Part shown: positions 1-23,856 of the stretch, piece after piece
Layout: the number at the start of each line of letters is the position of its first letter
Position numbering within the stretch: the first letter of the stretch is position 1
Assembly (NCBI GenBank): GCA_017745235.1
Contig: JAGHZU010000013.1
Coordinates: 159,977 to 223,976, forward strand
Direction: 5' to 3'
From: Caulobacter sp.
Lineage (GTDB): Bacteria > Pseudomonadota > Alphaproteobacteria > Caulobacterales > Caulobacteraceae
DNA length: 64,000 bases
Notes under the pieces: model-generated
The model's database searches: none
Seen by the model: only the letters and a program-made list of their open reading frames with translations
What the model was told of the DNA's origin: nothing
Translations under genes and position numbers: made by a program

Positions 1-2
1 CC

Positions 3-812: not shown

Positions 813-820
813 ATGGCGTC

Positions 821-2646: not shown

Positions 2647-2818
2647 GAAACCCCCTTCGCGCGTCCGGCGACGGGGCGGAGGCGTCCGGAAGCGAGCCCC
2701 GGTCGATCATCGGCGAAAGCGGACGCGTGGCGCGCCGCCGAGCGATCGATGCGGCCTCCGCCGCTTCTCGTCGCTCAGACGGCAGTCCGCGCCTCGACCA
2801 TCCCCTGGGTCAGGGCAA

Positions 2819-3012
2819 GAGCGACCCACGCCGACAGGTCTCCTGGCTCGCGGGTCGTCGCACGGGACGCGGCCTTCCCAGGGCGGACCCCAGTGGCTGG
2901 CGTGAGGGAAGCCCCACGCCCTGCGTCTCGCGCTCGCCGCTTACAGTTGCAGGGACAGCCGCAGACTTGAGGCCGACGGCCCCGCACTGCATTCCCAATT
3001 AAGCCCTTTCGG
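2819..3012 (-). promoter_or_regulatory. Cobalamin (AdoCbl) riboswitch
   Basis: Read on the minus strand, the region shows the ordered conserved blocks of a B12 riboswitch: aattgggaatgcagtgcggg at the 5' side, then cctgcaactgtaagcggcga, then gccagccactgggg, and finally the 3' B12 box gcgagccaggagacctgtcg (plus-strand 2835-2854). It ends about 170 bases before the NiCoT transporter start and is on the same strand. Its expected action is to sense adenosylcobalamin and lower expression of the transporter. The boundaries are approximate. Confidence 0.93.
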
Positions 3013-3109
3013 GCGCCGGCGCGGTCAATATCGGCGCGATGAAGCGCCGACATCGTCAGGTGATAGCCGAATGGCGAGGGATCGCAAGCCATGCGTTGGC
3101 GGCGAGCGC

Positions 3110-3748: not shown

Positions 3749-3756
3749 GGCGGCCC

Positions 3757-4536: not shown

Positions 4537-4756
4537 GGAGTTCTGCTCCGAGGGCTGAGGAGCCGGCAGAATGGGCCCCTGGGCCGGGGCCGGATATCGG
4601 GGGATTTCTCTACTGGCTTCCCGAGAGAACCCTGACGGAGGATCGATCGGAAACCCCGCGGATTCGACCCAGGCTCATCGACAGCACGATCGAGGTGCGT
4701 AACCTTTCGTGTTCGGACTTCGTACTTCCCGTCAGGCAAGCGGCCTGGAGGTTCAC

Positions 4757-5242
4757 ATGACGACGCGACGACATCTGCTGACGGGCGGCGGGCTGACCGT
4801 CCTGGGCCTGGCTGTCGGGCTAGGCGCCTGCGGGGCCAGGGCCGCGTCCGGCGCCTTCGAGGTCACTCACACCGACGCGGAGTGGCGCAAGCTGCTGCCG
4901 CCCGACGCCTACGCCGTGCTGCGCCAGCAACGCACCGAGCGGGCAGGGACCAGCCCCCTGGACCATTTCTACAAGAAGGGCGTCTACAACTGCCGCGGCT
5001 GCGACCTGCCGCTGTTTTCTTCGGCGACCAAGTTCGATTCCGGCACCGGCTGGCCCAGCTTCTGGAAACCGCTGCCCAACGCCGTGGGCGAGCGGCTGGA
5101 CAGCAGCGACTTCATGCAGCGCACCGAGGTCCACTGCCGCCGCTGCGGCGGCCATCTGGGCCACGTCTTTCCCGATGGCCCCAAGCCCACGGGGCTGCGC
5201 TACTGCATGAACGGCGTGGCCCTGAGTTTCAAGGCGGCCTGA
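4757..5242 (+). CDS. msrB: Peptide-methionine (R)-S-oxide reductase MsrB, exported
   Basis: Reduces the R-epimer of methionine sulfoxide in oxidised proteins. The 161-residue protein begins with a twin-arginine type signal (TTRRHLLTGG followed by a hydrophobic stretch and GACGARA), so it acts outside the cytoplasm. The mature part is a full MsrB domain: YNCRGCDLPLF and HCRRCGGHLGH provide the four zinc-binding Cys, GTGWPSFW is the substrate-pocket motif, and RYCMN near the C-terminus carries the catalytic Cys. ATG 4757 is chosen because it starts the signal peptide. The gene is 6 bp upstream of dipZ, which suggests DipZ supplies its electrons. Confidence 0.93.
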   Translation: MTTRRHLLTGGGLTVLGLAVGLGACGARAASGAFEVTHTDAEWRKLLPPDAYAVLRQQRTERAGTSPLDHFYKKGVYNCRGCDLPLFSSATKFDSGTGWPSFWKPLPNAVGERLDSSDFMQRTEVHCRRCGGHLGHVFPDGPKPTGLRYCMNGVALSFKAA

Positions 5243-5248
5243 CTCAAG

Positions 5249-6994: not shown

Positions 6995-7159
6995 GCGGCG
7001 CGGCGAGGCTAAAATCGCCGAAAACCTTTCAGCCATCTAAGCTCACGCGTGTGCAAAGCTTGACAATTAATTTTAGCTGCTGTCGTTGAAAAACACAGTT
7101 TGTAAAAGACATGCGGCGTCGACAGACGGTCTCACCGATCGTTTGAAGGGGGAATATTT

Positions 7160-7504
7160 ATGAAGCTAGCCAAGTTGAGTGCTTTGGTGATTGGCGTTTT
7201 CGCGTGCCTCGCCATCGGAGGTGTCGCGAACGCCGCTCCCGCTGAACTTCCTCCTGGTCATCTCACGTTTCTAGGGGGAGGGTGGACCCAGCCGCTCGTG
7301 CGCGTGCAGATGGATATTCCGTTCCAGAACCCGCACAGCTGCGCCACAACAGATGGCTACATCGTTGATTCGACTCTTCCAGCCCTGCAGTTGCTTACGT
7401 CGATCCTTTTGACGGCCTACGCGTCGCATCAACAGGTTCGCTTGGTCGTCGACGGCTGCGTTCTCGGACGGCCGAACGTGATTGGAGCCTACCTCGTATC
7501 CTGA
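7160..7504 (+). CDS. Small secreted protein, unknown function
   Basis: A 114-residue protein with a clear signal peptide (LSALVIGVFACLAIGGVANA) and a mature part of about 90 residues containing two Cys (HSCATTD and VDGCVLG) that could form one disulfide. It ends in GRPNVIGAYLVS. The layout, a Cys near the start, a helix with a run of small and hydrophobic residues, then a VDGC-type strand, is shared by many tiny exported proteins of proteobacteria, but I cannot assign a family with confidence. A GGGGG-type ribosome binding site precedes ATG 7160. The gene and its upstream region, which includes TTGACA at 7060-7065, are visibly AT-richer than the neighbours, which hints at transfer. Confidence 0.65.
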   Translation: MKLAKLSALVIGVFACLAIGGVANAAPAELPPGHLTFLGGGWTQPLVRVQMDIPFQNPHSCATTDGYIVDSTLPALQLLTSILLTAYASHQQVRLVVDGCVLGRPNVIGAYLVS

Positions 7505-7577
7505 CGATTTCAGGTTGTCCGTCCGGCCGTCACCAACTCTGAATGAGGTGGCACCGACTCAAAGGGCTTCAGACCGG

Positions 7578-8040
7578 CTATCCAACTCGCGGGGGGAAGG
7601 GTGGCAGGCCTCGGAAATCCTTACGGATATCGGGCACGCCCGACGTCTCCACATACCATTCCAGCAATCGCGTCCGCATCGCCTCGCGCATCTTGGGGTG
7701 CCGCCGGCTGTGATCAAATTTCTGGTCCCAAGCGGGTCGGCCACCGGTCATAAAGTTCACTCTGGCCGCCGGGCCGCAGGACGTACGTGTATTCGGCGGT
7801 GCGGACCGCCGCGGCGCGCTGTCGGCGAAGCGGGCCTCGACCCCGTCGGCGAAGGCGACGACGGCCTTCGATCGGGCGGCGGGGGCAGGGCGGCCCAGGC
7901 CGGGAAAGCGCGTTTGGCGGCGGCGATCGCGATTTCGGCCTGAGCCTGGTCGGCGCGTGGGGACGTCGCGAACACCTTGCCGGTGGCCGGATTGATGACG
8001 TCGAGGGCGCCGTCAATGAGCAGTTCGGATTCATGGCTAG
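7578..8040 (-). pseudogene. Fossil fusing aldehyde dehydrogenase N-terminus and sulfatase C-terminus
   Basis: On the minus strand the segment starts with a recognisable aldehyde dehydrogenase N-terminus (ELLIDGALDVINPATGKVFA, then AIAAAKRAFPAWAALP) at about 8035-7890. It continues in another frame as RSKAVVAFADGVEARFADSA. It then becomes the C-terminal end of a sulfatase, VRTAEYTYVLRPGGQSELYD at about 7805-7745, and after another frame change REAMRTRLLEWYVETS at about 7690-7645. None of this forms one open frame. The simplest reading is a deletion that joined two neighbouring genes, followed by frameshifts. Not expected to be functional. Confidence 0.75.
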
Positions 8041-8082
8041 AAGCCTTTGAAGGGGTGGATGGCGATTGACCGGGCTCAGGCG

Positions 8083-8913
8083 CTAGTGGCGATCCCACCA
8101 GGCAGTGACCTGGGCCGCATAGGCGTCGGCGCCGTCTTCCCAGATGAAATGGCCCGCATCGATGAAGGCGACTTCCGAGCCCGGGATGCGGTCGGCCAGG
8201 AAGGTGGCGTTCACCGGCGGCACGACCTGGTCGTGGGCGCCGGAGATGATCTTCACCGGCGTGCGGATGGAGCCGAGCAGGTCGCGTAGGATCGGCAGCT
8301 CCCGAGGGTATTGGCGCACATAGCTCAAGGACTTGTAGAAACGCTCGCCCGCATAGCCCGACAGGTAGTCTTCGCGTGCGGTGTCGGAGGGCGTGTAGCG
8401 CTCGAGCGTGCTGACGGCGGCGGCGGCGACGTCGCGGCCGTCCATGCTGCGGTAGGGCTCGATATCGCCTTCGACCCAGCCCTTGAGCGGCTCGCCCAGG
8501 TCGAGCGGGACCGCGGCGCCGCCGGTGCCGATGACGATGCTGCGGAACCGGCCCGGATGGCGGACGGCCGCGAAGAGCGAGGCGGCCGTGCCCACGTCGG
8601 GCCCGACCACGTGCGGCGTCTCAAGGCCCAGTTCGTCCGCGATCCGCACAATGAAGTCGCCCATGGCGCTGGGCGACATCAGAGCCTCGCGGCCCTCGGA
8701 ATGGCCGAAACCGGGAAGGTCGATCGCCGTGAGGTTGGCGTGCTTGGCGAGCTTCGCCCAGGTCGGCTCGAACGCGTAGAGGCTCTCAGGCCAGGGGCTC
8801 ATCAGCAGCGCTTCGGCGCCCAGATTGAGATTGCGCTCGCCCTTGGCGATACGGATGGCAAGCCCGTCGATCGTGCGGATCTCAGGGCGGATGGTGGTGA
8901 GGTCGTTGGACAT
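8083..8913 (-). CDS. Alpha/beta hydrolase, haloalkane-dehalogenase-like (Asp nucleophile)
   Basis: A 276-residue alpha/beta-hydrolase fold protein. The nucleophile elbow reads VVGPDVGTAAS, placing Asp106 where lipases have Ser, as in haloalkane dehalogenases and epoxide hydrolases. The acid residue is in ISGAHDQVVP and the catalytic His in DAGHFIWEDG. LDLPGFGHS supplies the conserved loop before the cap. No signal peptide is visible. ATG 8913 is chosen over an upstream ATG because GGAG lies about 8 bases before it. A GlxA-type regulator lies 105 bp upstream in the same direction and may control it. The substrate is unknown. Confidence 0.85.
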   Translation of the reverse strand: MSNDLTTIRPEIRTIDGLAIRIAKGERNLNLGAEALLMSPWPESLYAFEPTWAKLAKHANLTAIDLPGFGHSEGREALMSPSAMGDFIVRIADELGLETPHVVGPDVGTAASLFAAVRHPGRFRSIVIGTGGAAVPLDLGEPLKGWVEGDIEPYRSMDGRDVAAAAVSTLERYTPSDTAREDYLSGYAGERFYKSLSYVRQYPRELPILRDLLGSIRTPVKIISGAHDQVVPPVNATFLADRIPGSEVAFIDAGHFIWEDGADAYAAQVTAWWDRH

Positions 8914-9018
8914 TTCTTGGCTCCGCCTGAATGGCTGATCAAGAAGATGGGGGATCAACGGCGCGTCTCAAATGTCATGCTAGCAGCACTTTTAGGACAT
9001 ACTGCGGGCGGCCCTTGT

Positions 9019-11023: not shown

Positions 11024-12460
11024 GTGCCCTTGTCCTCACCGCTCGAAACGCTCGATCGTCAGCGCAAGCTCGTCAGCCTCCGCGCGCGGCGTTCGATGCG
11101 AACGGGCGCTGTGGTGGCCGCCGCCGTGGCGGCGGGCGCAGCGGCGGTTGGGTTCGCCAAGCTGTGTGACGCCGCCATGGCGGTCCACGCCCGCTTGGTG
11201 GGGATGAACGCCGCATTGGGACCCGTCTTGCTGCTGGTCGGAACGCCGCTTTGTGTCTGGCTGACGCGACGCTTGGCGCCCGCCGCCGCGGGCAGCGGCA
11301 TCCCGCAGGTGATTGCCGCCGGCGAGATCGGGCGGGGCAGGGGGCTGGACGGTGAAAAGATCCACGACGAGCGAGTCTCCATGCGCACGGCCCTGGTGAA
11401 GGTGGCGCTGGCGGCGATGTTCCTGGTCTGCGGCGGATCGATTGGTCGCGAAGGTCCGACCGTGCAAATCGTCGCCGCCGTGATGGTGTTCCTGACCGGG
11501 TGGCTTCGCGGCGGCCCCGGCCGGCGCACCTTGTTGATCGCAGGCGGGGCGGCCGGGGTCTCGGCTGCGTTCAACACGCCCATCGCAGGGATCGTCTTTG
11601 CTGTCGAGGAACTGGCTCGGGGCTTTGACAAGCGCGCCAACACCGTCGTGATCCTGGCTGTGGTGTCGGCCGGCGTGGCCGCCTACGCCCTCGGCGGCAA
11701 CTATGCCTATTTCGGCGACATGTCCGGGGCGGCCGGCTGGACAGCGTGGATTAGCGCAGCGCTGATCGGACTGGTTGCGGGTCTCTTGGGCGGATTGTTC
11801 TCGCGCGTCATGGCCGCCGTGCTGGTCGGCGACAATTCCGTGCGCCGCTGGCGCGAGGCCCGGCCAGTGGCCTTCGGGGCGATCTGCGGCGCCGTTGCGG
11901 CGGTCGCCGCCCTTCTCACGGGCGGCGCAACCTACGGCGCCGGCTATATCGAGGCGAAGTCGCTGCTGTTTGGCCATTTCACCTCGGGCGGGACCTTGGC
12001 GGCAGGCAAGTGGCTGGCGACCTTGTCGGCGGCGGCCAGCGGCGCGCCCGGCGGCGTCTTCGCGCCGTCCCTGGCGACGGGCGCGGGCCTGGGCGCGCTC
12101 TTCGCGCATCTGGCGCCCTGGGCTGGCGCGCGTGAGGCCGTGACCCTGGGCATGGCCGGCTATCTCGCCGGCGTGGTGGCCGCGCCGCTGACCAGCGCCG
12201 TCATCCTGATGGAGATGACCCGAGACCCGGGCCTGGTGGGGCCGCTGCTGCTCTGCACGCTGGTTGCCCGCCGCGCGTCGGAGGTGGTGGCGCCGACGCC
12301 GCTCTACCACGCGCTGGCCCGGGCCTGGACGCGGCCTCGGCGGCGCACCGGACGTCTGGCGCCCGCGAGCGCGCGCGTCGAAGCCGACGCACAGGAGGCG
12401 GACCCCGCACGTGCTTCATCTGGCCCGCGGCCTCTTCTTCCCGGGTCGCAGTATCACTGA
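11024..12460 (+). CDS. ClC-family chloride/proton antiporter
   Basis: A 478-residue protein with about ten or more membrane segments and the ClC anion-pathway signatures: AGSGIPQV, GGSIGREGPTVQ with the gating Glu, and GVFAPSLATGAGLG. The intact gating Glu argues for a Cl-/H+ exchanger rather than a passive channel. It starts with GTG after GAAGG. The last residues (GSQYH and the TGA stop) come from the sequence that I read as the left end of a transposon, so the original C-terminal tail may have been replaced. The core transport domain is complete. Divergent from a MarR-type regulator. Confidence 0.9.
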   Translation: MPLSSPLETLDRQRKLVSLRARRSMRTGAVVAAAVAAGAAAVGFAKLCDAAMAVHARLVGMNAALGPVLLLVGTPLCVWLTRRLAPAAAGSGIPQVIAAGEIGRGRGLDGEKIHDERVSMRTALVKVALAAMFLVCGGSIGREGPTVQIVAAVMVFLTGWLRGGPGRRTLLIAGGAAGVSAAFNTPIAGIVFAVEELARGFDKRANTVVILAVVSAGVAAYALGGNYAYFGDMSGAAGWTAWISAALIGLVAGLLGGLFSRVMAAVLVGDNSVRRWREARPVAFGAICGAVAAVAALLTGGATYGAGYIEAKSLLFGHFTSGGTLAAGKWLATLSAAASGAPGGVFAPSLATGAGLGALFAHLAPWAGAREAVTLGMAGYLAGVVAAPLTSAVILMEMTRDPGLVGPLLLCTLVARRASEVVAPTPLYHALARAWTRPRRRTGRLAPASARVEADAQEADPARASSGPRPLLPGSQYH

Positions 12461-12575
12461 CTCCAACGGTCGCGACTGGCGCGCCCAGCAATCGCGAGGC
12501 TGCGGCACACTCAAAACCCACGACCGACTCCAAACTCTGCAGAAGCTGATTCCCGATCCGCGACTGACTATTTCG
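12452..12575 (+). repeat. Left-end repeat array (transposase-binding-site-like)
   Basis: Contains tatcactgactccaa (12452-12466), cacactcaaaaccc (12506-12519), gactccaaactctgc (12526-12540) and gactgactatttcgc (12562-12576). These resemble, in inverted orientation, the repeats at 23732-23856. Multiple short repeats at each end are typical of transposons mobilised by TnsB/TniA transposases. Confidence 0.6.
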
Positions 12576-12647
12576 CCCCCTTTGGGGTTGGGGCGGCCCT
12601 ACCCGCAATCGACCGGGCGCACCTTCGCCTCCAAACCAGGCGTGTCT

Positions 12648-13478
12648 TCAGATCATCTCCAACGGTTTCCGCTCTCGCGGCCGCGGGAACGCCTGGTCGA
12701 GCGCCGCCAGGTCGGCCTCATCGAGCTGCAGATCCACGGCGGCGCGATTGTCGCGGACATGGGCGATCGAGCTAGCCTTTGGGATGGCGATCACGCCGGG
12801 ACGCCTTAATAGCCACGCGAGGGCGATTTGGGAGGCCGTGGCGCCCTTGCGTTCGGCAATCGCGCGTAGCGCCGAATGGTCGACGAGGCGGCCTCTTTCG
12901 ACCGGGCTATAGGCCATCGCGGGGATGTGGCGCTGCTCCAGCCAGGGCAGCAGGTCGATCTCCGGGCTGCGACGGGTCAGGTTGTAGAGGATCTGGTCGG
13001 TGGCGCAGCGTTCCCCGCCGGAGGCCACTAGCTCCTCCATATCGTCGGTGTCCAGGTTGCTGACGCCCCAGCGCGCGATCTTGCCGCCGTCAACGAGCCG
13101 CTCCATCGCCTCTACGGTCTCGGCGAGGGGGACATCGCCGCGCCAGTGGAGCAGATAGAGGTCAAGCCGTTCGACGCGGAGTCGACGCAGGCTAGCTTCG
13201 CAAGATCTTGCGAGCCGAGCGCGCGAGGCGTTCTGCGGATAGGCCTTGCTCACCAGGAAGACGCGATCGCGGATGCCGGCGATCGCCTCGCCGACCAAGG
13301 TCTCGGCCGCGCCTTCGCCGTACATCTCGGCCGTGTCGATCAGCGTCATGCCAAGGTCCACGCCTTCGCGCAGCGCGGCGATCTCTTCGGCGCGACGGCC
13401 GGCGCGCTCGGCCATCATCCAGGTGCCCTGGCCAAGAGCAGGAACCGTGGCGCCGTCGGGAAGGCTCACTGTCTTCAT
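12648..13478 (-). CDS. Aldo/keto reductase
   Basis: A 276-residue NADPH-dependent reductase of the (beta/alpha)8 barrel family. The catalytic tetrad is visible: Asp48 (LIDTAEMYGEG), Tyr53, Lys78 (LVSKAYP) and His111 (LYLLHWRG). The C-terminal cofactor motif VIAIPKASS with the following Asn is also present. It resembles the YeaE-type group that reduces methylglyoxal and other reactive aldehydes. ATG 13478 (MKTVSLPDG) is used since it begins the family homology. It lies just inside the proposed left end of the transposon and is transcribed toward that end. Its position suggests a cargo gene for electrophile detoxification (inference). Confidence 0.88.
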   Translation of the reverse strand: MKTVSLPDGATVPALGQGTWMMAERAGRRAEEIAALREGVDLGMTLIDTAEMYGEGAAETLVGEAIAGIRDRVFLVSKAYPQNASRARLARSCEASLRRLRVERLDLYLLHWRGDVPLAETVEAMERLVDGGKIARWGVSNLDTDDMEELVASGGERCATDQILYNLTRRSPEIDLLPWLEQRHIPAMAYSPVERGRLVDHSALRAIAERKGATASQIALAWLLRRPGVIAIPKASSIAHVRDNRAAVDLQLDEADLAALDQAFPRPRERKPLEMI

Positions 13479-13736
13479 AACCTGTCTCCACCGCGCGGCC
13501 AATTGGGCCCCTAGAACCTCGAAAGCCGGCGCTGCTCCGGCAAGGCCGCTGCTCACCTACGTACCTTGCCAGTGGGCGCCTATGTCGAGCTTGAAATTAT
13601 TTTCTAGGATAAATCTTTGAAGCGCCCGCACCTGGGTGGATGTCAATAACATTAGTGAATCGGCGCGCTTATATTTTCAGGAACATTCAGCATAGGACGG
13701 TCTTCTATTTGGCGGGGTGGCCATGGGAGAATGGGC

Positions 13737-14297
13737 ATGACCGACAGACTTGAGGGTTGCCGCGTTGCTATCCTGGTTACGGATGGTTTCGAGGAGGTGG
13801 AGCTGACGAAGCCGCGCCAGGCGCTCGACGATGCAGGCGCCCAGACGTCGATCGTCTCTCCCAAGGACGACAAGGTTCGCAGTTGGCGGTTTACCGATTG
13901 GGGAGAGGAATTCCCGGTCGACGTGCGCCTGAGGGATGCTCGGCCTGAAGCATTCGACGCGCTTCTACTGCCCGGCGGCGTGATCAACCCTGACAAGCTG
14001 CGGATGGATGAGGACGCAATGGTGTTCGCCGCCGCCTTCTTCGAGAGCGGCAAGCCCATCGCATCTATCTGCCACGGGCCGTGGACGATCATTGAGACTG
14101 GCCATGCGGCCGGGCGGCGGATCGCGTCCTGGCCATCGCTTGAGACCGATCTGCTCAATGCGGGAGCCGTGTGGGTCGATCAGCCAAGCGTTACCGACGG
14201 CAACCTGACCACGAGCCGCAATCCCGACGACATCCCCCAATTCAACGAAGCCATGGTGGGGCTGTTCGCCAGCCAGAGGTCAACAGAGCCCGCCTGA
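13737..14297 (+). CDS. DJ-1/PfpI family protein (YhbO/PfpI-like)
   Basis: A 186-residue flavodoxin-like fold protein of the PfpI group. Glu19 in DGFEEVEL and the nucleophile Cys112 followed by His113 in SICHGPW form the family triad region, and LLLPGGVINPDKLR is the conserved strand. Relatives act as glyoxalases, protein deglycases or stress proteases; the exact activity is not resolved by sequence. ATG 13737 is preferred to ATG 13731 because GGGAGA ends 6 bases before the former and touches the latter. An ABM-domain gene follows in the same direction after 48 bp, probably in one operon. Part of the proposed transposon cargo. Confidence 0.88.
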   Translation: MTDRLEGCRVAILVTDGFEEVELTKPRQALDDAGAQTSIVSPKDDKVRSWRFTDWGEEFPVDVRLRDARPEAFDALLLPGGVINPDKLRMDEDAMVFAAAFFESGKPIASICHGPWTIIETGHAAGRRIASWPSLETDLLNAGAVWVDQPSVTDGNLTTSRNPDDIPQFNEAMVGLFASQRSTEPA

Positions 14298-14345
14298 GCG
14301 GGCGCTACGCGGTGAGGTTCGCCGGCTCAACACAGGAGAAGAGAG

Positions 14346-15603
<1,258 letters not shown>

Positions 15604-17190
15604 TTAGTGGGCGTCGGGTGGCGGCCTCGACGCGAGGGGCGGGGGCTTGCAGAACGGGGCCATGACCAGGGCCAGCACGAAGAGGCCCGCCATCACCCGG
15701 AAGACGTCGTTGAAGGCCAGCGTCAAGGCCTCGCGACCGACAATCCTGGCCAACTCACCCCGTAGGACCAGCGAAGCCTGGGCGGCGTCGGGCGTGCGCT
15801 CGGCGATGCGAGCCGCCAGAGTTTCAAGCGCCGCGTTGCCCGACCGGCCGGCCTCGCCCAGCGCTTCGCCGAAGCGCGCGACGTGAATGCGAGCGTTGTC
15901 GCCTAGCCAGGTGTTTACGACCGCGATGCCGATCGCCCCGCCGAGATTGCGCATCAGGTTGAACAGGCCCGAGGCGTAACGCAGCTCGGCCATCTCGAAG
16001 CCCGACAGCGCCATGTTCACGCTGGGCACGATGCACAGCATGATCGCAAAGCCGCGCAGAGCCTGGGGCGCCAGCAGGGCCATGAAACCCCATTGGCTGG
16101 TCATATGCGAGGTCAGCCACAAGGCCGCGGCGAACAGCGACAGTCCCGCCGTCACCACAATCCGCTGATCGACTCGCGTCGAGAGCCGCGCCGCGATGAC
16201 CGTGGACAGGATCTGGGCGATACCGGTGACGAAGACCGTGGTGCCGATCTCCAGGCTGTCATAGCCGCGCACGCGTCCGAGGAAGACCGGGATCAGATAG
16301 GTCGAGGAATAAAGGCCAAAGCCGATCACCAGATTGAACACGCAGGCGAAGACGAAGGTTGGTTTGCGGAATGGCGAAAGCTTCACGACCGGCCCTCCGG
16401 ACCGGAACGAGCGCTCGACGAACAGGACGAAGGCCACCAGCGTCACCCAACCGGCGACGGCGATGGTGGTGTCCTCGAACCACTGCTGGCGCGGCCCTTC
16501 CTCCAGCACGTACTCCAGTCCGCCCAGGAACACGGCCATCGCCGCCAGGTGGGAATAGTCGATGGTCTTCAGCATCTCGGGCATGGGCCGGTCGACCTTG
16601 ATGACGCTGATGGCCAGGACGGTGACCAGGGTTCCGGGCACGATGTTGATGTAGAAGATCGAGCGCCAGCCGACCGCTTCGGTCAGCCATCCGCCGACCG
16701 TGGGGCCCAGTGTCGGGGCCAGCACCGAGACCATGCCCAGGATCGCCGGGATCATCGCTCGCTGCGGTCCGGAGAACATCGCAAAGCCTGTGGCGAAGAC
16801 GGTCGGCACCATGGCTCCGCCGGTGAAGCCTTGCAGCACCCGAAACAGGATCATCGAGTTGATGTCCCAGGCCATGCCGCACAGGGCGGAGGACAGCGTG
16901 AAGAGTCCAGCCGACAGGGCGAACAGCCATCGCGTTGACAGGCTTTGAGCCAGGAATGCGGCGAACGGGATCATCACGAGCTCCGCCATGAGGTAGCCGG
17001 TCTGCACCCAGCTGATCTCGTCGGGACCCGCCGACAGGCCCGCCTGCACGTCGTTGAGCGAGGCGGCGACGATCTGGATATCGATCAGGGCCATGAACTG
17101 GCCAAACGCCATGACCCCGAAGATCAGGAACTTGGTGGCCGTGGGCAGGGCGCCTGGGTCTATCGGTGGCTTGGCGGCGGCTGGGCTCAC
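15604..17190 (-). CDS. DHA2-family multidrug efflux permease (EmrB-like)
   Basis: A 528-residue major-facilitator protein with 14 predicted membrane helices. It shows the family marks IDIQIVAASLNDVQ in helix 1, a motif-A-like loop, the RVLQGFTGGAMVP helix 4 motif and LGPTVGGWLTEAVGWRSIFYIN (motif C, antiporter signature). It exports hydrophobic drugs by proton antiport, in partnership with an EmrA-type adaptor. The adaptor is not beside it on the same strand but lies divergently at 17845, behind a TetR regulator. Starts with GTG after AAGGGG. Member of the proposed transposon cargo. Confidence 0.9.
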   Translation of the reverse strand: MSPAAAKPPIDPGALPTATKFLIFGVMAFGQFMALIDIQIVAASLNDVQAGLSAGPDEISWVQTGYLMAELVMIPFAAFLAQSLSTRWLFALSAGLFTLSSALCGMAWDINSMILFRVLQGFTGGAMVPTVFATGFAMFSGPQRAMIPAILGMVSVLAPTLGPTVGGWLTEAVGWRSIFYINIVPGTLVTVLAISVIKVDRPMPEMLKTIDYSHLAAMAVFLGGLEYVLEEGPRQQWFEDTTIAVAGWVTLVAFVLFVERSFRSGGPVVKLSPFRKPTFVFACVFNLVIGFGLYSSTYLIPVFLGRVRGYDSLEIGTTVFVTGIAQILSTVIAARLSTRVDQRIVVTAGLSLFAAALWLTSHMTSQWGFMALLAPQALRGFAIMLCIVPSVNMALSGFEMAELRYASGLFNLMRNLGGAIGIAVVNTWLGDNARIHVARFGEALGEAGRSGNAALETLAARIAERTPDAAQASLVLRGELARIVGREALTLAFNDVFRVMAGLFVLALVMAPFCKPPPLASRPPPDAH

Positions 17191-17216
17191 GGGAGCGCCC
17201 CTTGTAGCATGATGAC

Positions 17217-17228
17217 TATAATATTATA
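17217..17228. promoter_or_regulatory. 12-bp perfect palindrome, likely TetR operator
   Basis: The sequence tataatattata sits in the only space between the divergent emrB-like and TetR genes. A perfect dyad at this position is the natural operator for the TetR protein, and it would cover both promoters. Its AT content also fits a -10 region. Confidence 0.5.
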
Positions 17229-17254
17229 TGGATCATGTAATCGAGGACGCAAGC

Positions 17255-17848
17255 ATGCGCTACGACGGCGAGCACAAGCAGAAGACCCGCCTGCGGGTTC
17301 TGGATGAGGCGGCCAGGGCCATCCGCGAGGAGGGGCCGCACCGCCTGGGCGTGGCCGCCGTGATGGCCCGCGCGGGCCTGACGCATGGCGGCTTCTATTC
17401 CCATTTCGCGTCGAAGGAGGCGTTCATCGCCGAGGCCATCGCCCACATGTTCGAGGGCGGGCCGATCACGACGCTGAAGACGGTGAGGGACCTGCCGCCG
17501 CGCGAGGCGCTGACGCAGTTCATCGATTTCTATCTTTCGCGTCGCCATCGCGACAGCCGCAACGGCGGCTGTCCGCTGCCGTACCTGGCTGGCGATGCGC
17601 CGCGCCTGGCCGAGGCCTCGCGCGAACGCTACGCCCAAGGTGCGGCAAATCTCACCAAGGTGGTCGCCGACCGCCTGGCGGAGCTGGGCCGCCCCTATGC
17701 CGAGGAGGAGGCCAGCTCGACCCTGGCGGAACTGGTCGGGGCCGTCACCCTGGCCCGGGCCGAGGCCGATCCCGACCGCTCCGACGCCATTCTCGAACGC
17801 TCGCGCGCGCACCTCAAGCGCCGCCTTGGTCTGGAGGCCGCCCAATGA
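17255..17848 (+). CDS. TetR/AcrR-family regulator
   Basis: A 197-residue repressor. The N-terminal helix-turn-helix reads RLGVAAVMARAGLTHGGFYSHFASKEAFIAEA, matching the TetR subgroup whose members start MRYDxEHKQKTR. ATG 17255 is chosen for that reason and because GAGGA lies 8 bases upstream; ATG 17228 would overlap the palindrome. The C-terminal ligand domain contains GGCPLPYLAGD, a conserved Cys-bearing stretch of this subgroup. Its stop overlaps the EmrA-like start by ATGA (17845-17848), so regulator and adaptor are one operon, divergent from the EmrB-like permease. It probably represses both. Confidence 0.9.
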   Translation: MRYDGEHKQKTRLRVLDEAARAIREEGPHRLGVAAVMARAGLTHGGFYSHFASKEAFIAEAIAHMFEGGPITTLKTVRDLPPREALTQFIDFYLSRRHRDSRNGGCPLPYLAGDAPRLAEASRERYAQGAANLTKVVADRLAELGRPYAEEEASSTLAELVGAVTLARAEADPDRSDAILERSRAHLKRRLGLEAAQ

Positions 17849-18972
17849 GCGACACCACCTTCAAGGAAGGGCTCACCGAAGCGCCCGCCGCCGCCAAGGC
17901 CAGGAAAGCTCCGTTCTCGCGCAAGACTGTGCTGGCGGTTGGCGCGGCGATCGTCGTCGCCGTCGGCGGCGCTGCCTTCATCGCCGCGCCCAAGGGCTCA
18001 GTCTCGACCGACGCGGCCTATATCCAGGCCGACAGCTCGGCCATCGCGCCAAAGGTTCGGGGCCTCGTATCTCAAGTGCTGGTCGGCCACAATCAGGCGG
18101 TCCATCGGGGGGACGCCTTGCTGCGCATCGATCCCGAGGAGTTTGACGCCCGCGTCGCTTCCGCGGAGGCTGATGTCGGCAACGCCGAGGCCGCCGCGGC
18201 GAGCGCCCGCGCCGCCCTGATCGCGCTGGACGCCGAACAACGCTTGGCGAGCTCCAACATTCGCGCCGCCCAGACGGCGATCGCCGCCGCCGACGCCGAG
18301 AACGTCCGCGCCCAGGCCGATCGCAAGCGCTACGAGGACCTCGCCAATAGCGGCGCGGTGGCCAAGCGGGACGTCGAGCGTTTTCGCGCCGCCGCCATTG
18401 GGGCCCAGTCGGACGCTGACCGCAGCCGCGCCCAGCTATCGGTGAGTCAGGACCAGGCGGCGGTCACCGCCGCCAAGCGCGCCACCCTGACCGCTAACCT
18501 CGCCCAGGCCGATGCCGCCGTGGCTCGCGCCAGGGCCGCCTTGGTGCTAGCCCGCCAGGACCAGAGCCACGCGGTCATCGTCTCGCCGATCGACGGGGTG
18601 GTGGGCGACCGCCAGGCCGAGCCCGGAGACTACGTCCAGCCCGGCACGCGGCTGATGACCATCGTGCCGATGAACGCCCTCTACGTGGTCGCCAACTTCA
18701 AGGAGACCCAGGTCGAGCGGATGCTCCCGGGTCAGGAGGCGACGATCAAGGTCGACGCCCTGGGCGGCAAGGCGTTGAGGGGGCACGTCGAAAGCTTCGC
18801 GCCGGGCTCGGGCTCGCAGTTCTCGCTGCTGCCGTTCGAGCCGGGCACGGGCAACTTCACCAAGATCGTTCAGCGCGTGCCGGTGCGCGTCCGCATCGAC
18901 CCAGGCCAAGCCGAGGTCGCCCGCCTACGGCCGGGCCTGTCGACGACGGTGAAGGTGAAGTTGAAGACTTAG
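17845..18972 (+). CDS. HlyD/EmrA-type membrane-fusion adaptor
   Basis: A 375-residue periplasmic adaptor anchored by one N-terminal membrane helix (TVLAVGAAIVVAVGGAAFIA). Next come STDAAYIQADSSAIAPKVRG and the split lipoyl half-motif, then a long Ala-rich coiled-coil hairpin (about residues 105-235), the second lipoyl half with VSPIDGVVGDRQAEPGDYVQ, and a beta-barrel domain with FKETQVERMLPGQEATIKVD. It couples the inner-membrane EmrB-type pump to an outer-membrane channel. No channel gene is present in this cluster, so a shared TolC-like protein is presumably used. Translationally coupled to the TetR gene. Confidence 0.9.
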   Translation: MSDTTFKEGLTEAPAAAKARKAPFSRKTVLAVGAAIVVAVGGAAFIAAPKGSVSTDAAYIQADSSAIAPKVRGLVSQVLVGHNQAVHRGDALLRIDPEEFDARVASAEADVGNAEAAAASARAALIALDAEQRLASSNIRAAQTAIAAADAENVRAQADRKRYEDLANSGAVAKRDVERFRAAAIGAQSDADRSRAQLSVSQDQAAVTAAKRATLTANLAQADAAVARARAALVLARQDQSHAVIVSPIDGVVGDRQAEPGDYVQPGTRLMTIVPMNALYVVANFKETQVERMLPGQEATIKVDALGGKALRGHVESFAPGSGSQFSLLPFEPGTGNFTKIVQRVPVRVRIDPGQAEVARLRPGLSTTVKVKLKT

Positions 18973-19052
18973 GAGCCCGTGTGGGTTTCTGGCGAGGAGA
19001 GGGCGCTCCACTCGGAGTCCGAGAGGCGCGCGCGCACTATTGTCGCAGCGCA

Positions 19053-19475
19053 TCAGTTGATAATTTCGCCCCGCTCGTCCGGGGGGAGCGCGGTCAGTCG
19101 CTCTCTCCACGACTGCAAGGCTTCTGGTGTCAGCCTGGTCCAGTCCTTGATCTCGCCAAGGATCTTTAGAGGCGCGCTGCTTCGATAGGAGCGGGTGGGA
19201 TTGCCGGGAAACTTCCTGTCGGTCACGTTCGGATCGTTCTCGAACGCCCCGGTCGGTTCTACGGCATAGACCCGGGGGACTGCGCCGCCCCCTCTGAGTT
19301 CCGCCGCGATTTCGGCGGCAAGCCCGGCGCCGTTCACATTCGCGGTAAAGTAGACGTGGTTCATCACGACATCGGGACGATAATTCGACCGAAACCCCGC
19401 AGTTAGAAGATCATCAACGCGCAGATCAGCGATTGTGCCGTGAAAGAAGGGTCCTGTGTCGGTGACTTCGGTCAT
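19053..19475 (-). CDS. arr: Rifampin ADP-ribosyltransferase Arr
   Basis: A protein of about 140 residues that transfers ADP-ribose from NAD+ to the ansa-chain hydroxyl of rifamycins, giving resistance. The diagnostic Arr features are all visible: GPFFHGTIADLRVDDLLTAG at the N-terminus, HVYFTANV, VYAVEPTGAFENDPNVTD and FPGNPTRSYRSSAPL. Length matches the family. GTG/ATG choice: ATG 19475 follows GAGG at a 9-base distance; an ATG at 19490 would add five residues. It lies within the proposed transposon between the efflux genes and the transposition module, a typical cargo position for a resistance gene. Confidence 0.92.
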   Translation of the reverse strand: MTEVTDTGPFFHGTIADLRVDDLLTAGFRSNYRPDVVMNHVYFTANVNGAGLAAEIAAELRGGGAVPRVYAVEPTGAFENDPNVTDRKFPGNPTRSYRSSAPLKILGEIKDWTRLTPEALQSWRERLTALPPDERGEIIN

Positions 19476-19610
19476 CGTCAAATGCCTCATTTGTCGCTGG
19501 CGAGATCAACCAGTAGCTGACGGGACAGGCGCCAAGGCCGGATTCCAGCTGAACGTGAGCATCAGCGCCGTCCAACCCGCCGATCCCAAACGCGAAAACG
19601 CCGACGTTGC

Positions 19611-19703
19611 GGATCGCTAGCTGCCCTCGACAACCAAGAGCATCTCTCGGTGGATTTAATCGAAGCTGTCGCCACGCGTCGTCGAGCGACCGAAAATGGA
19701 TAA
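19611..19703 (+). pseudogene. C-terminal remnant of a tnsC/tniB gene
   Basis: The frame reads AALDNQEHLSVDLIEAVATR then RRATENG and stops, closely matching the last residues of the intact TnsC-like protein at 21754-22650 (AALEHDEQLSASLVEAVATR, RRRNEDG). The start of the following tniQ overlaps this stop by 8 bases, the same geometry as in the intact module at 22643-22650. It is therefore the tail of a second, related transposition operon whose upstream part is gone. Confidence 0.75.
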
Positions 19704-20280
19704 CGTCCAACACGCGTCCTGCGACTTATCTGCGCTTGCTCCACCAATCGAGGCGGGCGAAGCAATCTCATCGTGGCTAGCGCGCACAGCGGATACTCAT
19801 CTGCTGACGCTTGCCGAGTTACAGAGAGAGATCGGCGGTTCGATTGCCGCCTTAGATCGCGGAGACTTCACGCTCCTGCCAAGAGTGGCTCGAATGACTG
19901 GCGTCTCCATCGAAACTCTGTTCCGAATGGTGCACAGCCAATTTATCGCCGAGCCGGCTAGGCCAGGGCCGCCGCCACCCGAGACCTGGGCTGTGTGTCC
20001 GGAGTGTCTCCGCGCCGATCAGGAGCAGGGAAGGGCGCCCCACGTACGGCGAACCTGGACACACCCCTTATATGTCTACTGCCCAGTCCACGAGACCGCT
20101 CTTATTCCTCAAGTGAACAGTCCTATCAGCGTGGTCAGTCAGCTTGCAGTTGCCGGCGAACGCGCACCGGCCAGAAATTATAGCTCAACCCCGCTAAGTC
20201 GCTTTTATTTTGACGACAGCCGTGTGTGGCGACGACGGCAACCGTTGCGCTTCAGCTCAGCGATGATTCAGAGACATTGA
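19696..20280 (+). pseudogene. TniQ-family protein, truncated copy 1
   Basis: The N-terminal 170 residues are a TniQ domain closely related to the second copy at 22643: LSALAPPIEAGEAISSWLAR, TLAELQREIGGSIAALDRGD, and the zinc-finger region CPECLRADQEQGRAPHVRRT with a later YCPVHE. TniQ proteins guide target or resolution choice for TnsB/TnsC-type transposases. The frame stops at 20280, where the second copy continues for about 190 more residues. Other frames downstream read on for a while (for example LKWAWSVMDRLASIRDDAAD from 20281), so frameshifts are likely. Not expected to be functional in full. Confidence 0.75.
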
Positions 20281-20692
20281 AGTGGGCATGGTCGGTGATG
20301 GATCGGCTGGCCTCCATTCGCGATGACGCCGCCGACGCTCGTTTCGGGAAAAATAGCTTCGATCCGCGCATCGCCTATATCATTGCGCTTACGCGTGATC
20401 TTCAAAAGCCGACGCGACGCGCAGATTCAGAAGAGCGGCTTGTGCGTCTGGCTGAGCTATCACCTCCACAGAACTGCTCCAAGCGATTTCGGCCACAGCC
20501 TCCTAAGAGCGGTCCGAGATATCGACCGGACCCTTCCGAATGTTGGAGCTAGCTTCATCAACGAGCTGGCCTCCATTCGCTATGTACCGACGGCCGATGA
20601 TGCGGCCGCATGGCAAGCGGGTTTCCAGCAACTGCTTCAGTTGCTCGCTGAACTCCTCGTTATCCGCGCGCTTTGCAACGCCGGTTGCGAGT
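20281..20692. other. Decayed junction between tniQ copy 1 and tnsB
   Basis: About 410 bases with only short, overlapping frames on both strands. Reading passes from one plus-strand frame (LASIRDDAADARFGKNSFDP) to another (SFINELASIRYVPTADDAAA). One minus-strand frame also reads smoothly (EEFSEQLKQLLETRLPCGRI). The N-terminal half of tnsB that should be here is not recognisable. I read this as a rearranged or deleted junction. Confidence 0.55.
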
Positions 20693-21757
20693 GGCCGGCC
20701 CATTGGTCGGCCTTGGCTCACGGTCGTCATCGACGTCTGCACCCGCATGGTGGTGTCGTTCTGCGTTGGGCTTGAGCCGCCTTCGGCCATCCGTGTGGCA
20801 TCGACACTAGACTTGGCTGTGTCCAACAAAGCGGCTTGGCTCGCCTCACGTGGTCTGGACTACCATTGGCCGGCCGAGGGATTCCCGCGGCTTTTGCACA
20901 GTGACCGAGCCAAGGAATTTGCGCGCCCCTCACTGCGGCGCGCTTTGTTGAACCACGGTGTCGACTGGTTTCTCAGGCCGCCCGGACGGACCCGCTATGG
21001 AGCGCATGTTGAGCGGTTGATCGGAAGCTTGATGGGAGGGTGTAAGCTTCTTCCCGGGGCGACGCACAGTAGTCCGAAAGCGCGCGGCAACTACGACAGC
21101 AAGGCAGCGGCTCGGCTACGGATCGACGAGCTGGAGATGTACTTCGCGCATCAGATCTTGGGGGTCTATAACCAAACAGAACACAGCGCGCTTGGCACGA
21201 GTCCGCTACAGGCCTGGACTGATCGAACAGTTGGCCAAGCACCTGAGTTTCCGGATGATATGGAAGCGTTCCGTATCGATCTTTTTCCCGAGATTCCACG
21301 CACTCTCGGTCGCCAGGGGATTAAGGCCTTTCATGAGGAGTATTACAGCCAGAAGCTTGGCGAAGCTTACATCTCCGGTCTTCGAAAAGTCGTCGCCAAA
21401 TTTGATCCCCGTGACCTTTCACAGCTGTACGTCAAACTTCCCGATACAGGTTACATAACTGTACCTTATCGCATCCGTCGGGATGGGCCGACGCCGACAT
21501 GGTGGTTGCTAAAAGCGGCGGCTCGTGCGGCGACGTCGAAGAGGGCGGCGCCCCGCGATCGCACCGTCGTTCGGCAAGCCGTCCGCGCCATGGAGGAGAC
21601 CATTGAGCAGGCCGCATTAAGGTCTGGCTCGGCCGCCAGGCAAGCAGAGCGGCTGCGCTCGGATCGTCGTGCCGTGTCGAGCCTGCGCGACTCCACAAGA
21701 CCGATCCAAGATTCAGATGACGATTGGGGCGGTGCCTTCGAGGGGAGGGGAGCATGA
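20540..21757 (+). CDS. TniA/TnsB-like transposase, N-terminally truncated
   Basis: Homology begins at about 20693 with GRPIGRPWLTVVIDVCTRMV, inside the catalytic core of Mu/TnsB-type DDE transposases. The second catalytic Asp is in LLHSDRAKEFARP and the Glu in HVERLIGSLMGG. The Mu-type C-terminal beta-barrel and the basic tail that contacts TnsC follow. The DNA-binding N-terminal half and the usual IDHT motif that supplies the first catalytic Asp are missing from any upstream frame, so the protein is probably inactive even if translated. The stop overlaps the tnsC-like start by ATGA (21754-21757). Part of the tnsB-tnsC-tniQ module. Confidence 0.75.
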   Translation: MLELASSTSWPPFAMYRRPMMRPHGKRVSSNCFSCSLNSSLSARFATPVASGRPIGRPWLTVVIDVCTRMVVSFCVGLEPPSAIRVASTLDLAVSNKAAWLASRGLDYHWPAEGFPRLLHSDRAKEFARPSLRRALLNHGVDWFLRPPGRTRYGAHVERLIGSLMGGCKLLPGATHSSPKARGNYDSKAAARLRIDELEMYFAHQILGVYNQTEHSALGTSPLQAWTDRTVGQAPEFPDDMEAFRIDLFPEIPRTLGRQGIKAFHEEYYSQKLGEAYISGLRKVVAKFDPRDLSQLYVKLPDTGYITVPYRIRRDGPTPTWWLLKAAARAATSKRAAPRDRTVVRQAVRAMEETIEQAALRSGSAARQAERLRSDRRAVSSLRDSTRPIQDSDDDWGGAFEGRGA

Positions 21758-22650
21758 GTCCCGCTCCATACGATCACCTGCACCCAGATGTCCGTCATCT
21801 CGCGACCGCGGACATCGTGGTCCGCAAGGCTTGTATCCAAACGGACCGTTGGATCAACTATCCTGCGGCCGACGATGCGTTGGAGCGGCTCTTCGAACTA
21901 CTCGACATGCCGCCACGGCTTCGCATGCCGTCGATCCTGTTCTGGGCAAGCCCTAACATGGGCAAAACTCACATTCAGAAGCGCTTTATCGAACTATACA
22001 TAGCTAGAGATACTGGAGATCCACCCAAACCTCTAAAGAAGCTACACTCCTATGGCGCAGTGCTATGGCTCGAGGTGAACGATGGCCTGTCTGAAAAGCG
22101 CCTATATCTGGACATGCTCAAGGCCTTTGGCACGACAGGAGGAGATGCGACAGCCTCGCGTCTACAGGCCATGGTGCTCAAGCACATCGAGGCACGCGGC
22201 ATCCGGATGATCATCCTTGATGAATTGCAGCGTGTTACCGAGCAACGAGAAAGAGATCAGCGCGCAATTCTCAATGTCTTAAAATATCTCTCAAATCAAT
22301 TGCAGCTCAGCATCGTTGGATTTGGATCGGGAGAGGCCAAGGCGCTGATCAAATCCGATCCTCATTTGGAAGAGCGGTTTGATGTCGTTGCCCTTCCTGC
22401 TTGGACAACAAAGGAAAAATGGCTCGTTAAGTTAGTCACGGAGCGGATCGAATATCTACCATTACGCAAACCTACAACGGTTGATCGCGCCTTGATGGAT
22501 GCACTCTTCTTTCACTCTCGTTCGCTGCTTGGGAGAACGTTCAACCTCATCGAGCGAACGGCGATCGCCGCCCTTGAACATGATGAGCAGCTTTCAGCCA
22601 GTCTGGTCGAGGCGGTGGCCACACGTCGCCGACGCAATGAGGATGGATAG
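21754..22650 (+). CDS. TniB/TnsC-like AAA+ transposition ATPase
   Basis: A 298-residue AAA+ ATPase that would select target DNA and activate the TnsB-type transposase. Walker A is SPNMGKTHIQKR (about residues 70-80) and Walker B is RMIILDELQRV; sensor region LSIVGFGSGEAKALIKSD and LPAWTTKEKWL match the TniB family. ATG 21754 follows a strong GAGGGGAG ribosome binding site and overlaps the tnsB stop by 4 bases. The 3' end overlaps the tniQ start by 8 bases. The gene looks intact. Codon use is visibly less GC-rich than the host genes around the element. Confidence 0.9.
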   Translation: MSPAPYDHLHPDVRHLATADIVVRKACIQTDRWINYPAADDALERLFELLDMPPRLRMPSILFWASPNMGKTHIQKRFIELYIARDTGDPPKPLKKLHSYGAVLWLEVNDGLSEKRLYLDMLKAFGTTGGDATASRLQAMVLKHIEARGIRMIILDELQRVTEQRERDQRAILNVLKYLSNQLQLSIVGFGSGEAKALIKSDPHLEERFDVVALPAWTTKEKWLVKLVTERIEYLPLRKPTTVDRALMDALFFHSRSLLGRTFNLIERTAIAALEHDEQLSASLVEAVATRRRRNEDG

Positions 22651-23710
22651 GTCATGGGACGGGGCACCGGATCTCTCTGTGCTCGCGCCGCCGGCTGAAG
22701 TCGGTGAAGCGCTTTCGTCGTGGCTGGTCCGTACGGCAGATGCCCACCTTCTGACGAGCCGCGAATTGGAAAAGGAGATGCATGGGTCAATAGCCGAACT
22801 CGATCGCGGGAATCTGGCGCCGCTTGCGCGCCTCGCCATGATGATGCGCACCGAGAGCGCGGCGTTGCGTGCAATGATCCTGGAAGACTTCATCCGTCAG
22901 CCTTGTCGAGCTGGTCCCCCGCCGCCCCATTGCTGGGCGGTTTGTCCGTATTGCCTGGCGGTTGATGTCGAACAGGGCAGGGCGCCTTATGTGCGTCGAA
23001 CCTGGACCCATCCCCTGGCGGTGTACTGCGCTCTCCACAGGGCGCCGCTCGTTCCCCACGGCAACTCCGACATCAAGATTGCCAGTGAGCTCACGTTGTT
23101 CGGCGATCTCCAACCCTATGAGCCCCGAGATAATTTGCTCGATCGTTCCCACTTTGACGCTAGAGAATTAATTCTCCACACGATCGATGTGCTCGAAGAT
23201 TCTACGAAGGTTGACGAGAGGGATAGGCTTACCGATGCGGTGAGCGATATCGTCGACGCGCTCGCCACCAATATGTACACGCCGAATTCTGGGGTGGCGA
23301 TACGACTTATAGAAGCTCCAGTAATGCGTCGGAGATCTCTGCCTGGATCGAATGAACTCCCAGAGAAGTGGTGGCTTGATGTTAACGCGCGCGAACGGTT
23401 ACTTTATGTCCGCATGGCGTTGCTTTTCTTGAGTGAACCGGCGCATCCACCACGATCTTCGGATAAGGGACCGTTTGGAGCTAATTGGTTCGCAAACCGA
23501 TATGCCAAAAACTACGTAGGCTGGGTCAGCTGCGCTATGGAAGATCCCTTGCTTCTTCTGGCCACTGAGCTGCCGAGAAGTGCGGTCTCAACGATGAACT
23601 ATCGATCGTTTGCGTGGCCAAAACGTCTGAGGCAGCGCTGGTCGTCGGCGGTGTCGGCGGCCATTCTTTGGGCAACTTCGGCGGTTCCTGCTGCGGGCGG
23701 ATCGACCTAA
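22643..23710 (+). CDS. TniQ-family targeting protein, copy 2
   Basis: A 355-residue TniQ protein. The N-terminal TniQ domain (LSVLAPPAEVGEALSSWLVR, SRELEKEMHGSIAELDRGN) is followed by a zinc finger with CPYCLAVDVEQGRAPYVRRT and YCALHRAPL, then a C-terminal part without an obvious motif. ATG 22643 is chosen because it aligns residue for residue with the start of copy 1 at 19696. It completes the tnsB-tnsC-tniQ operon, and the right-end repeats begin 21 bp after its stop. TniQ/TnsD-type proteins recognise the insertion site or help recruit TnsC. Confidence 0.88.
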   Translation: MDRSWDGAPDLSVLAPPAEVGEALSSWLVRTADAHLLTSRELEKEMHGSIAELDRGNLAPLARLAMMMRTESAALRAMILEDFIRQPCRAGPPPPHCWAVCPYCLAVDVEQGRAPYVRRTWTHPLAVYCALHRAPLVPHGNSDIKIASELTLFGDLQPYEPRDNLLDRSHFDARELILHTIDVLEDSTKVDERDRLTDAVSDIVDALATNMYTPNSGVAIRLIEAPVMRRRSLPGSNELPEKWWLDVNARERLLYVRMALLFLSEPAHPPRSSDKGPFGANWFANRYAKNYVGWVSCAMEDPLLLLATELPRSAVSTMNYRSFAWPKRLRQRWSSAVSAAILWATSAVPAAGGST

Positions 23711-23731
23711 TAAGCCGCTGCGTGGATCGCA

Positions 23732-23856
23732 TTTTTTGGAGTCAGACCAGTCGCAGGATTTTGAGTCAGAATCCGTAAAAAATCGGAACGTCGGGGCAAC
23801 CGGTGACAGCCCGGGTGCGACTCGCAGAGTTTGGAGTCAGTGACAAGTCAGTGACA
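23732..23856 (-). repeat. Right-end repeat array (transposase-binding-site-like)
   Basis: Contains ttttttggagtcagacc (23732-23748), gattttgagtcagaatcc (23757-23774) and gcagagtttggagtcagtga (from 23824), followed by a second gtcagtgaca ending at 23856. The outer tip therefore reads TGTCACTGACT inward on the minus strand, with the TGT terminus of Tn7/Tn402-type elements and an immediate direct repeat of the terminal 10-11 bases. The repeats match those at 12452-12575 in the opposite orientation. Confidence 0.65.

Follow-up and report, generated by a model that had tools for sequence, protein, structure and literature searches.

The transposons of the Tn402/Tn5053 family, which combine the genes tniA, tniB, tniQ and tniR with terminal repeats of about 25 bp (as in R751), insert into res sites (res-hunting) and give rise to a 5-bp target duplication, are among the closest described counterparts of the element considered here. 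In PMC8649781, Tn5053 is grouped with Tn6022 and the type V-K CRISPR-associated transposons (CASTs) in clade 3 of the Tn7-like elements; for those lacking TnsA, a copying mode of transposition is proposed there. The present analysis concerns a 64-kb stretch of DNA, hereafter the window (positions 159977-223976 of contig 44 in a 4.93-Mb draft Caulobacter genome; 167 contigs, 93.7% complete, 4.8% contamination), and in particular its segment 12452-23845 (11,394 bp), taken as the element; with a probability of roughly 0.75, this segment is a decayed, non-autonomous Tn7-like transposon, mosaic in structure, of a subfamily found here in Caulobacteraceae and related to the Tn5053/Tn402 branch. As a new example in a known superfamily, with real ends, a worn-out transposase and a mildly unusual cargo, it is well supported. 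Between the ends lie genes for an aldo/keto reductase, a DJ-1 protein and an ABM protein, the stump of an amine oxidase gene, an emrB-tetR-emrA operon, arr and the tns module; the ends and the transposition genes are the following.

12452-12580, + strand: left end, with a terminal repeat (12454-12476), a gap of about 40 bp and an array of 19-20-bp repeats, predicted to be of the TnsB-binding-site type
20687-21757, + strand: 3' part of tnsB (DDE transposase), coding for the C-terminal ~355 residues; Mu-transpos_C and rve domains, rve below the curated cut-off
21754-22650, + strand: tnsC, a TniB-type AAA+ ATPase of 297 amino acids (PF05621, E 7.7e-44)
22637-23710, + strand: tniQ (PF06527, E 1.1e-10)
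23726-23845, - strand: right end, three 19-bp repeats with the terminus ...GGAGTCAGTGACA

The element qualifies as Tn7-like in the sense of PMC8649781 in that neighbouring open reading frames (ORFs) encode domains of the rve/Mu-transpos_C, TniB and TniQ types, TnsB being represented by its C-terminal part only, and in that each end carries an array of ~20-bp inverted repeats common to close relatives; a functional DDE transposase is not found, residues 1 to ~189 with the first catalytic Asp being missing here and present in the relatives. Homology to TnsB starts at 20687-20693, i.e. at residue 189-190 of TnsB from Root655 and Root343 (541-605 amino acids in the relatives), and the window protein aligns to residues 188/190-541/544 of the relatives' TnsB; it lacks the motif WQIDHT and everything before it but retains HSDRA and HVERL. 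WQIDHT of the relatives corresponds in alignment to WQCDHT in 8rdu and 7svw, solved chains of type V-K CAST TnsB, and the three motifs are presumably the bearers of the three catalytic residues. The predicted TnsB is truncated, its first catalytic Asp lost with the N-terminal ~189 residues and its second Asp and its Glu kept. TnsC (67-69% identical over its full length to that of three relatives) and TniQ (52-56% to TniQ of Root655 and of genome G002, over residues 22-362 and 32-384) are apparently whole. When the resolvases of four relatives served as queries, nothing in the window matched at E <=0.01, and no TnsA model matched any of the 14 ORFs scanned inside the element. In the element's own genome, a relative's TnsB matches only this tnsB remainder, and TnsC aligns only with this tnsC and with the relic described below. 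Of the tnsB-tnsC-tniQ operon proposed by an earlier reading of the sequence alone, tnsC and tniQ are apparently whole genes; as a working operon it is not supported, TnsB being N-truncated, no resolvase having been found in the window with the four queries and the interior being a mosaic.

In the comparison with Tn402/Tn5053, a relative's TnsB matches TniA at 34.6% over 459 amino acids and the window TnsC matches TniB at 30% over 300; no TnsA was found, and the relatives' left-end resolvases resemble TniR of Tn402 in R751. The termini begin with TGTCA in both, only these first five bases agreeing by eye: the Tn402 terminal repeat reads TGTCATTTTCAGAAG and that of the window TGTCACTGACTCCAA, so that the ~25-bp family repeat of R751 is not present here. 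Similarity of the window TniQ is marginal (E 8e-4 over 43 amino acids). Unlike in Tn402, tniQ rather than tniA adjoins the right end and the relatives' resolvase lies at the other end; the full set of tniA, tniB, tniQ and tniR is not seen, TnsB being incomplete and a resolvase not being found with the four queries, and neither is a 5-bp target duplication at the window element. Clade 3 as delineated in PMC8649781 shares with this element the apparent lack of TnsA, the ~20-bp repeat arrays at both ends and, in the relatives, the resolvase; the solved sequences closest to a relative's TnsB are the 7svw and 8rdu chains. A difference is that no Cas gene was found among the window ORFs scanned. The subfamily may be placed in clade 3. 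The ORFs scanned contained no cas domain and no Rfam match was obtained between 9 and 28 kb, no search aimed at CRISPR having been made; a scan against viral contigs gave no match.

Much closer are the elements of Root655, Root343 and G002 (probably Caulobacter soli), with TnsC at 67-70%, TnsB at 61-69% over the kept part and the same end repeats; they differ in having a full-length TnsB, a resolvase near the left end, a length of 18-39 kb and other cargo. Their layout is alike, with 18-19 kb between the ends in G002, ~39 kb in Root343 and ~20 kb in Root655, whose left terminus was not securely found; in all three, tnsB-tnsC-tniQ adjoins the right end and a serine resolvase gene, its product 46-49% to Tn402 TniR, lies in or beside the left-end repeats. 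The Pfam resolvase domain is confirmed in the Root655 protein, and in G002 a second resolvase gene lies upstream of tnsB. The palindrome GGAATATATTCC is present in the left ends of both Root655 (L092, ~17660) and G002 (L088, ~13920); in Root655, where the serine resolvase gene follows ~150 bp downstream, it may belong to a res site. The tniQ of Root343 (L059, 16235-17349) is split over two reading frames, and this element too may be damaged.

The evidence for the two ends comes from an exact match, a matrix and alignments. The terminal 13-mer TCACTGACTCCAA occurs exactly only at 12454-12466 (+ strand) and 23831-23843 (- strand) of the 4.9-Mb genome, i.e. as an inverted pair; at one mismatch there is one more genomic site, and a reversed-pattern control gave one match at up to one mismatch. 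With a matrix built from 24 end repeats (19 bp) of G002, Root343, Root655 and G090, none of them from the window, the top five sites of the 64 kb are three in the right end and two in the left end; those of the right end (23821, 23750 and 23726, - strand; 28.6, 27.5 and 25.3 bits) all exceed 40 Markov control windows (maximum 19.0 bits, median 13.0). The right end scores 44-119 in alignments with the right ends of four relatives (controls up to 28), the 119 obtained with Root655 being reached by none of 980 control segments. The left end (130 bp) scores 55 over ~127 bp with the left end of Root343 (G049), and 66 with the left array of Root655 (G051); the two left ends of G002 give 37 and 31, and in none of these four tests did any of the 980 control segments exceed 26. 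Compared to the 26-31 obtained with the relatives' right ends, these values show it to be of the left-end type. Both termini are of the subtype TCACTG, the Root343 type, to which the relic belongs, being TCGCTG (few elements were compared). The Tn402/Tn7-like element that the sequence-only reading had described, with inverted end repeats about 11 kb apart and with the cargo between them, is supported, as is its remark that a ClC gene abuts the left repeats: the stop codon of ClC1 (12458-12460) lies inside the repeat. Of the boundaries it gave, 12452 and 23856, the left one stands and the right one moves to 23845. The 11 bp at 23846-23856, just outside the element, are a tandem repeat of its right terminus, AGTCAGTGACA, and are perhaps the stub of an older end; in G090 (L060, ~3871-3900), the right end is immediately adjoined on its outer side by another sequence resembling a right end, GACTCGCAGGGTTTGCGATCCGTGACA, an end pile-up as in the window.

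Inside the element, the remaining tnsB is preceded by two further segments, the first of which, like the amine oxidase stump listed further below, is an addition to the sequence-only reading.

19614-20226, + strand: relic left by a second member of the family, comprising the last 29 residues of TnsC and the first ~177 residues of TniQ
20227-20686, no strand assigned: 460-bp segment between the relic and tnsB; no Pfam match to the two ORFs scanned there

Over 604 bp, the relic matches the Root343 element (L059) at 89.7% identity; its TnsC piece corresponds to TnsC model positions 264-292, and its TniQ part is 50-52% to TniQ of Root655 and G002. Being ~90% identical to Root343 and yet only 50-52% to the TniQ of the other two, it represents debris of a second element. 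The 460-bp segment has no DNA match longer than 24 bp in the loci compared, those of its own genome excepted; it contains a 16-bp direct repeat (20306-20321 and 20565-20580).

The base composition is uneven: the stretch that begins with arr and includes the right end has a GC content of 53-60%, the DJ-1/ABM genes have 61.5%, the other cargo 65-68% and the flanks 66-72%. The lower GC of the stretch from arr to the right end, compared to the flanks, fits a foreign tns module. The cargo genes are listed below; Pfam and NCBIfam confirm the genes that had been named from the sequence.

12648-13556, - strand: aldo/keto reductase (PF00248, E 4.6e-56)
13731-14297, + strand: DJ-1/PfpI family protein (PF01965, E 4.8e-48; TIGR01382 above cut-off)
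14346-14639, + strand: ABM-type small protein (PF03992, E 4e-4; 20.9 bits, below the Pfam cut-off of 23.1)
14632-15069, - strand: N-terminal stump of a flavin amine oxidase, 145 amino acids, gene debris (PF01593, positions 1-37 of 443)
15604-17190, - strand: EmrB-type MFS efflux permease (TIGR00711, 373 bits; cut-off 230)
17228-17848, + strand: TetR-family regulator (PF00440, E 4.5e-11)
17845-18972, + strand: EmrA-type periplasmic adaptor (PF13437, E 5.8e-20; TIGR00998, E 3.7e-70, below cut-off)
19053-19490, - strand: arr, NAD-dependent rifampin ADP-ribosyltransferase (PF12120, E 6.7e-41; NF033144 equivalog)

The equivalog assignment of Arr has a narrow margin (NF033144, 133.3 bits for a cut-off of 130). 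When the cargo was compared with 75 genomes of the genus, its own included, the modules were found, among the matches listed, to have different closest relatives: the aldo/keto reductase is 87% identical in DNA to a sequence in G044 (C49), DJ-1/ABM and arr are 88% and 84% in G022, and the emr operon is 92-93% in G022 and 73-87% in G059, G066, G047, G046, G049, G061, G054 and G052. The end core TGACTCCAA was present in exact form in none of the four cargo loci examined (two in G022, one each in G044 and G059). Nine emr loci were compared for their surroundings: both flanks are common to G047, G046 and G049; in G059 one flank is complete and the other fragmentary, and G066 has one flank only; none is shared in G061, G054, G022 and G052. 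Since flanks are shared among several congeners, part of the genus has a native locus for the operon. Within the genome of the window the operon occurs only inside the element, the match stopping at the operon edges (15606 and 18969), and the flanks of the congeners' emr locus give only scattered matches, mostly at 66-78% and on different contigs. This distribution fits capture of the operon by the element, short of proof. Judging from these matches, the cargo is probably a patchwork of Caulobacter accessory genes, with predicted functions in aldehyde/redox detoxification, EmrAB efflux and, in the case of arr, rifampin inactivation. The cargo had been called unusual, and this is only mildly true: Tn7-like cargo is very diverse, antibiotic resistance included (PMC8649781), and arr is already known from chromosomes, plasmids, integrons and transposons (PMC8492726). 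In the main text of PMC8649781 the strings "rifamp" and "efflux" are absent, and "ADP-ribosyl" occurs once, for toxins.

Several observations weigh against the reading of 12452-23845 as one transposon. The two left-end matrix sites (12525 and 12458, + strand; 16.0 and 15.4 bits) are singly not above the Markov controls, and the scores of the left end with the four relatives' right ends lie near the control maximum, one of them being reached by 3 of 980 controls. The aldo/keto reductase and the emr genes are host-like in GC, so that composition is no proof of their arrival with the tns genes. No target-site duplication is present, CGCAG standing to the left of the element and AGTCA to the right; by eye, none is seen in the G002 or Root343 elements either. 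The rearranged flanks of the window element allow no reconstruction of a target site, such as a res site. For the search of an empty site, the left flank, the right flank and positions 1-9000 were each compared with the same 75 genomes, and what follows concerns the matches listed. In no congener examined is 12451 joined to 23846; orthologues of ClC1 with MarR nearby, and orthologues of ClC2, are found in congeners, the flanks never being joined, and right-flank DNA is found at the ClC1 region in none of eight congeners (L061-L067 and L021). ClC2 is common in the genus but at other places; the nearest case is G059, where it lies ~13 kb from ClC1, on the other side, facing away and upstream of MarR; MarR stands between the two, and of the aldo/keto reductase, DJ-1, EmrB, Arr and TnsC proteins none has a match in that stretch. 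Displacement also affects genes outside the ends, the variable and rearranged neighbourhood (~4.6-25.8 kb) being much larger than the element.

Part of this rearrangement can be located. In G048, G022, G050 and G002, the four relatives with both matches listed, the window segment starting at 3112 and position 25797 meet head to head, the matches being separated by 17-25 bp; in the window the two lie 22.7 kb apart, the break being ~1.95 kb outside the right end. As these positions are neighbours in four relatives, an ancestral junction was broken in the window by inversion or by a larger rearrangement. As to the ClC1 frame, orthologues in seven congeners end 6-21 codons past the shared PRRR motif, while the window frame runs 37 codons past it and stops in the left end, as expected if an insertion or a deletion had cut its 3' end.

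A rival reading is that the two ends do not form a pair: the left end would be left over from another copy, the aldo/keto reductase gene, arr and the genes between them would be residents, and only ~19.6-23.85 kb would be transposon DNA. The GC, foreign in the tns segment and not in most of the cargo, would agree with this, as would the debris that a second element certainly left here, the elements of the same family that lie beside extra ends in G002, Root343 and G090, and the rearranged neighbourhood; this reading is nevertheless unlikely, in view of the single subtype of both termini as opposed to that of the relic (in the few elements compared), of the lack of any other exact end in the genome, of the locus that the emr operon shares elsewhere in several congeners, and of the relatives, whose elements carry cargo at the corresponding place between the ends. 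The truncation of tnsB raises a different doubt, namely that its junction and the relic are artefacts of assembly and that the real element is intact; the draft state of the genome, with its 167 contigs and the completeness and contamination given above, and the position of the junction between two related sequences speak for such an error. It is nonetheless quite improbable, because the contig is continuous on both sides, the 460-bp stretch matches neither element, and the genome contains no other tnsB piece of the family and no other tnsC piece than the relic, although ~6% of it may be missing.

At the opposite extreme, the two ends, TnsC, TniQ and Arr, all apparently whole by sequence, could suggest an active, autonomous resistance transposon; a TnsB without its N-terminal third and its first catalytic Asp, the failure of the four resolvase queries to match the window and the presence of only one copy per genome make this hardly credible. 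A decayed transposon with paired ends thus remains the preferred reading.

In an intact member of the group, TnsB would bind the arrays of repeats at either end, the choice of target would fall to TnsC and TniQ, and the element would be copied into it, the serine resolvase then resolving the cointegrate. In the window copy, where what remains of tnsB adjoins the Root343-like debris of the second element, mobility would be possible only via a related transposase acting on the ends from outside. Replicative events within one chromosome would lead to inversions, deletions and unmatched flanks, and might explain both the absent target duplication and the rearranged flanks seen here; the cargo, for its part, would have moved with the element.

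The distribution of the group was approached through TnsC, for which 46 homologues were found at E <=1e-20, the window's own included, 43 of them at 46-83% identity; the four with an organism name come from Caulobacter (three) and Phenylobacterium (one), the closest (83%) being that of Caulobacter sp. Root487D2Y. Among 299 sampled genomes of the family, own included, 31 have a match at E <=0.001, the best match being weaker than 1e-60 in 21 of these. Searches of plasmids gave only relatives below 60% identity, both with TnsC (20 matches listed, at 32-35%; 1983 records) and with a relative's TnsB (10 listed, at 35-38%; 4835 records). The search of genome contigs, of small reach, gave only Root655 and Root343, and more relatives exist. 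In stretches from other genera (G276, G215, G252 and G289), a clear right end is seen in G289 only and a pair of ends in none, so that the length of the duplication cannot be set from them. The G002 element carries a CBASS-like set (L058, 5768-10100) with TRIP13, a cyclase and a SAVED-PDDEXK effector, that of Root655 genes for a methyltransferase and a TIR protein besides a weak match to a restriction enzyme, and that of Root343 MazG and helicase genes; as far as it was scanned (20 protein entries, two counted twice, covering part of those elements, several proteins being without a match), the cargo of the relatives appears to consist largely of defence genes. In titles and the opening parts of abstracts, no Caulobacter transposon with TniQ was found in the literature. 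Tentatively, and with more doubt than confidence, these elements may be regarded as a replicative Tn7-like subfamily centred on Caulobacteraceae, whose resolvase gene lies within or next to the left end and whose members repeatedly accumulate at ends of their own kind; the copy in the window would then be a satellite, with a dead transposase, intact TnsC, TniQ and ends, and captured host operons and arr, dependent on the transposase of a relative.

What this one sequence offers is an environmental alphaproteobacterial Tn7-like element that holds ordinary genes of its genus and a rifampin-inactivating gene amid the decay of its transposase. Knowledge of how such elements work is unchanged by it, and its end sequences can be used to find further members of the subfamily. 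Outside the element, the segments 29844-30115 and 33372-33643 of the window are paralogous, inverted with respect to each other and 72% identical, like cross-matches being present in G048, G050, G022 and G002.

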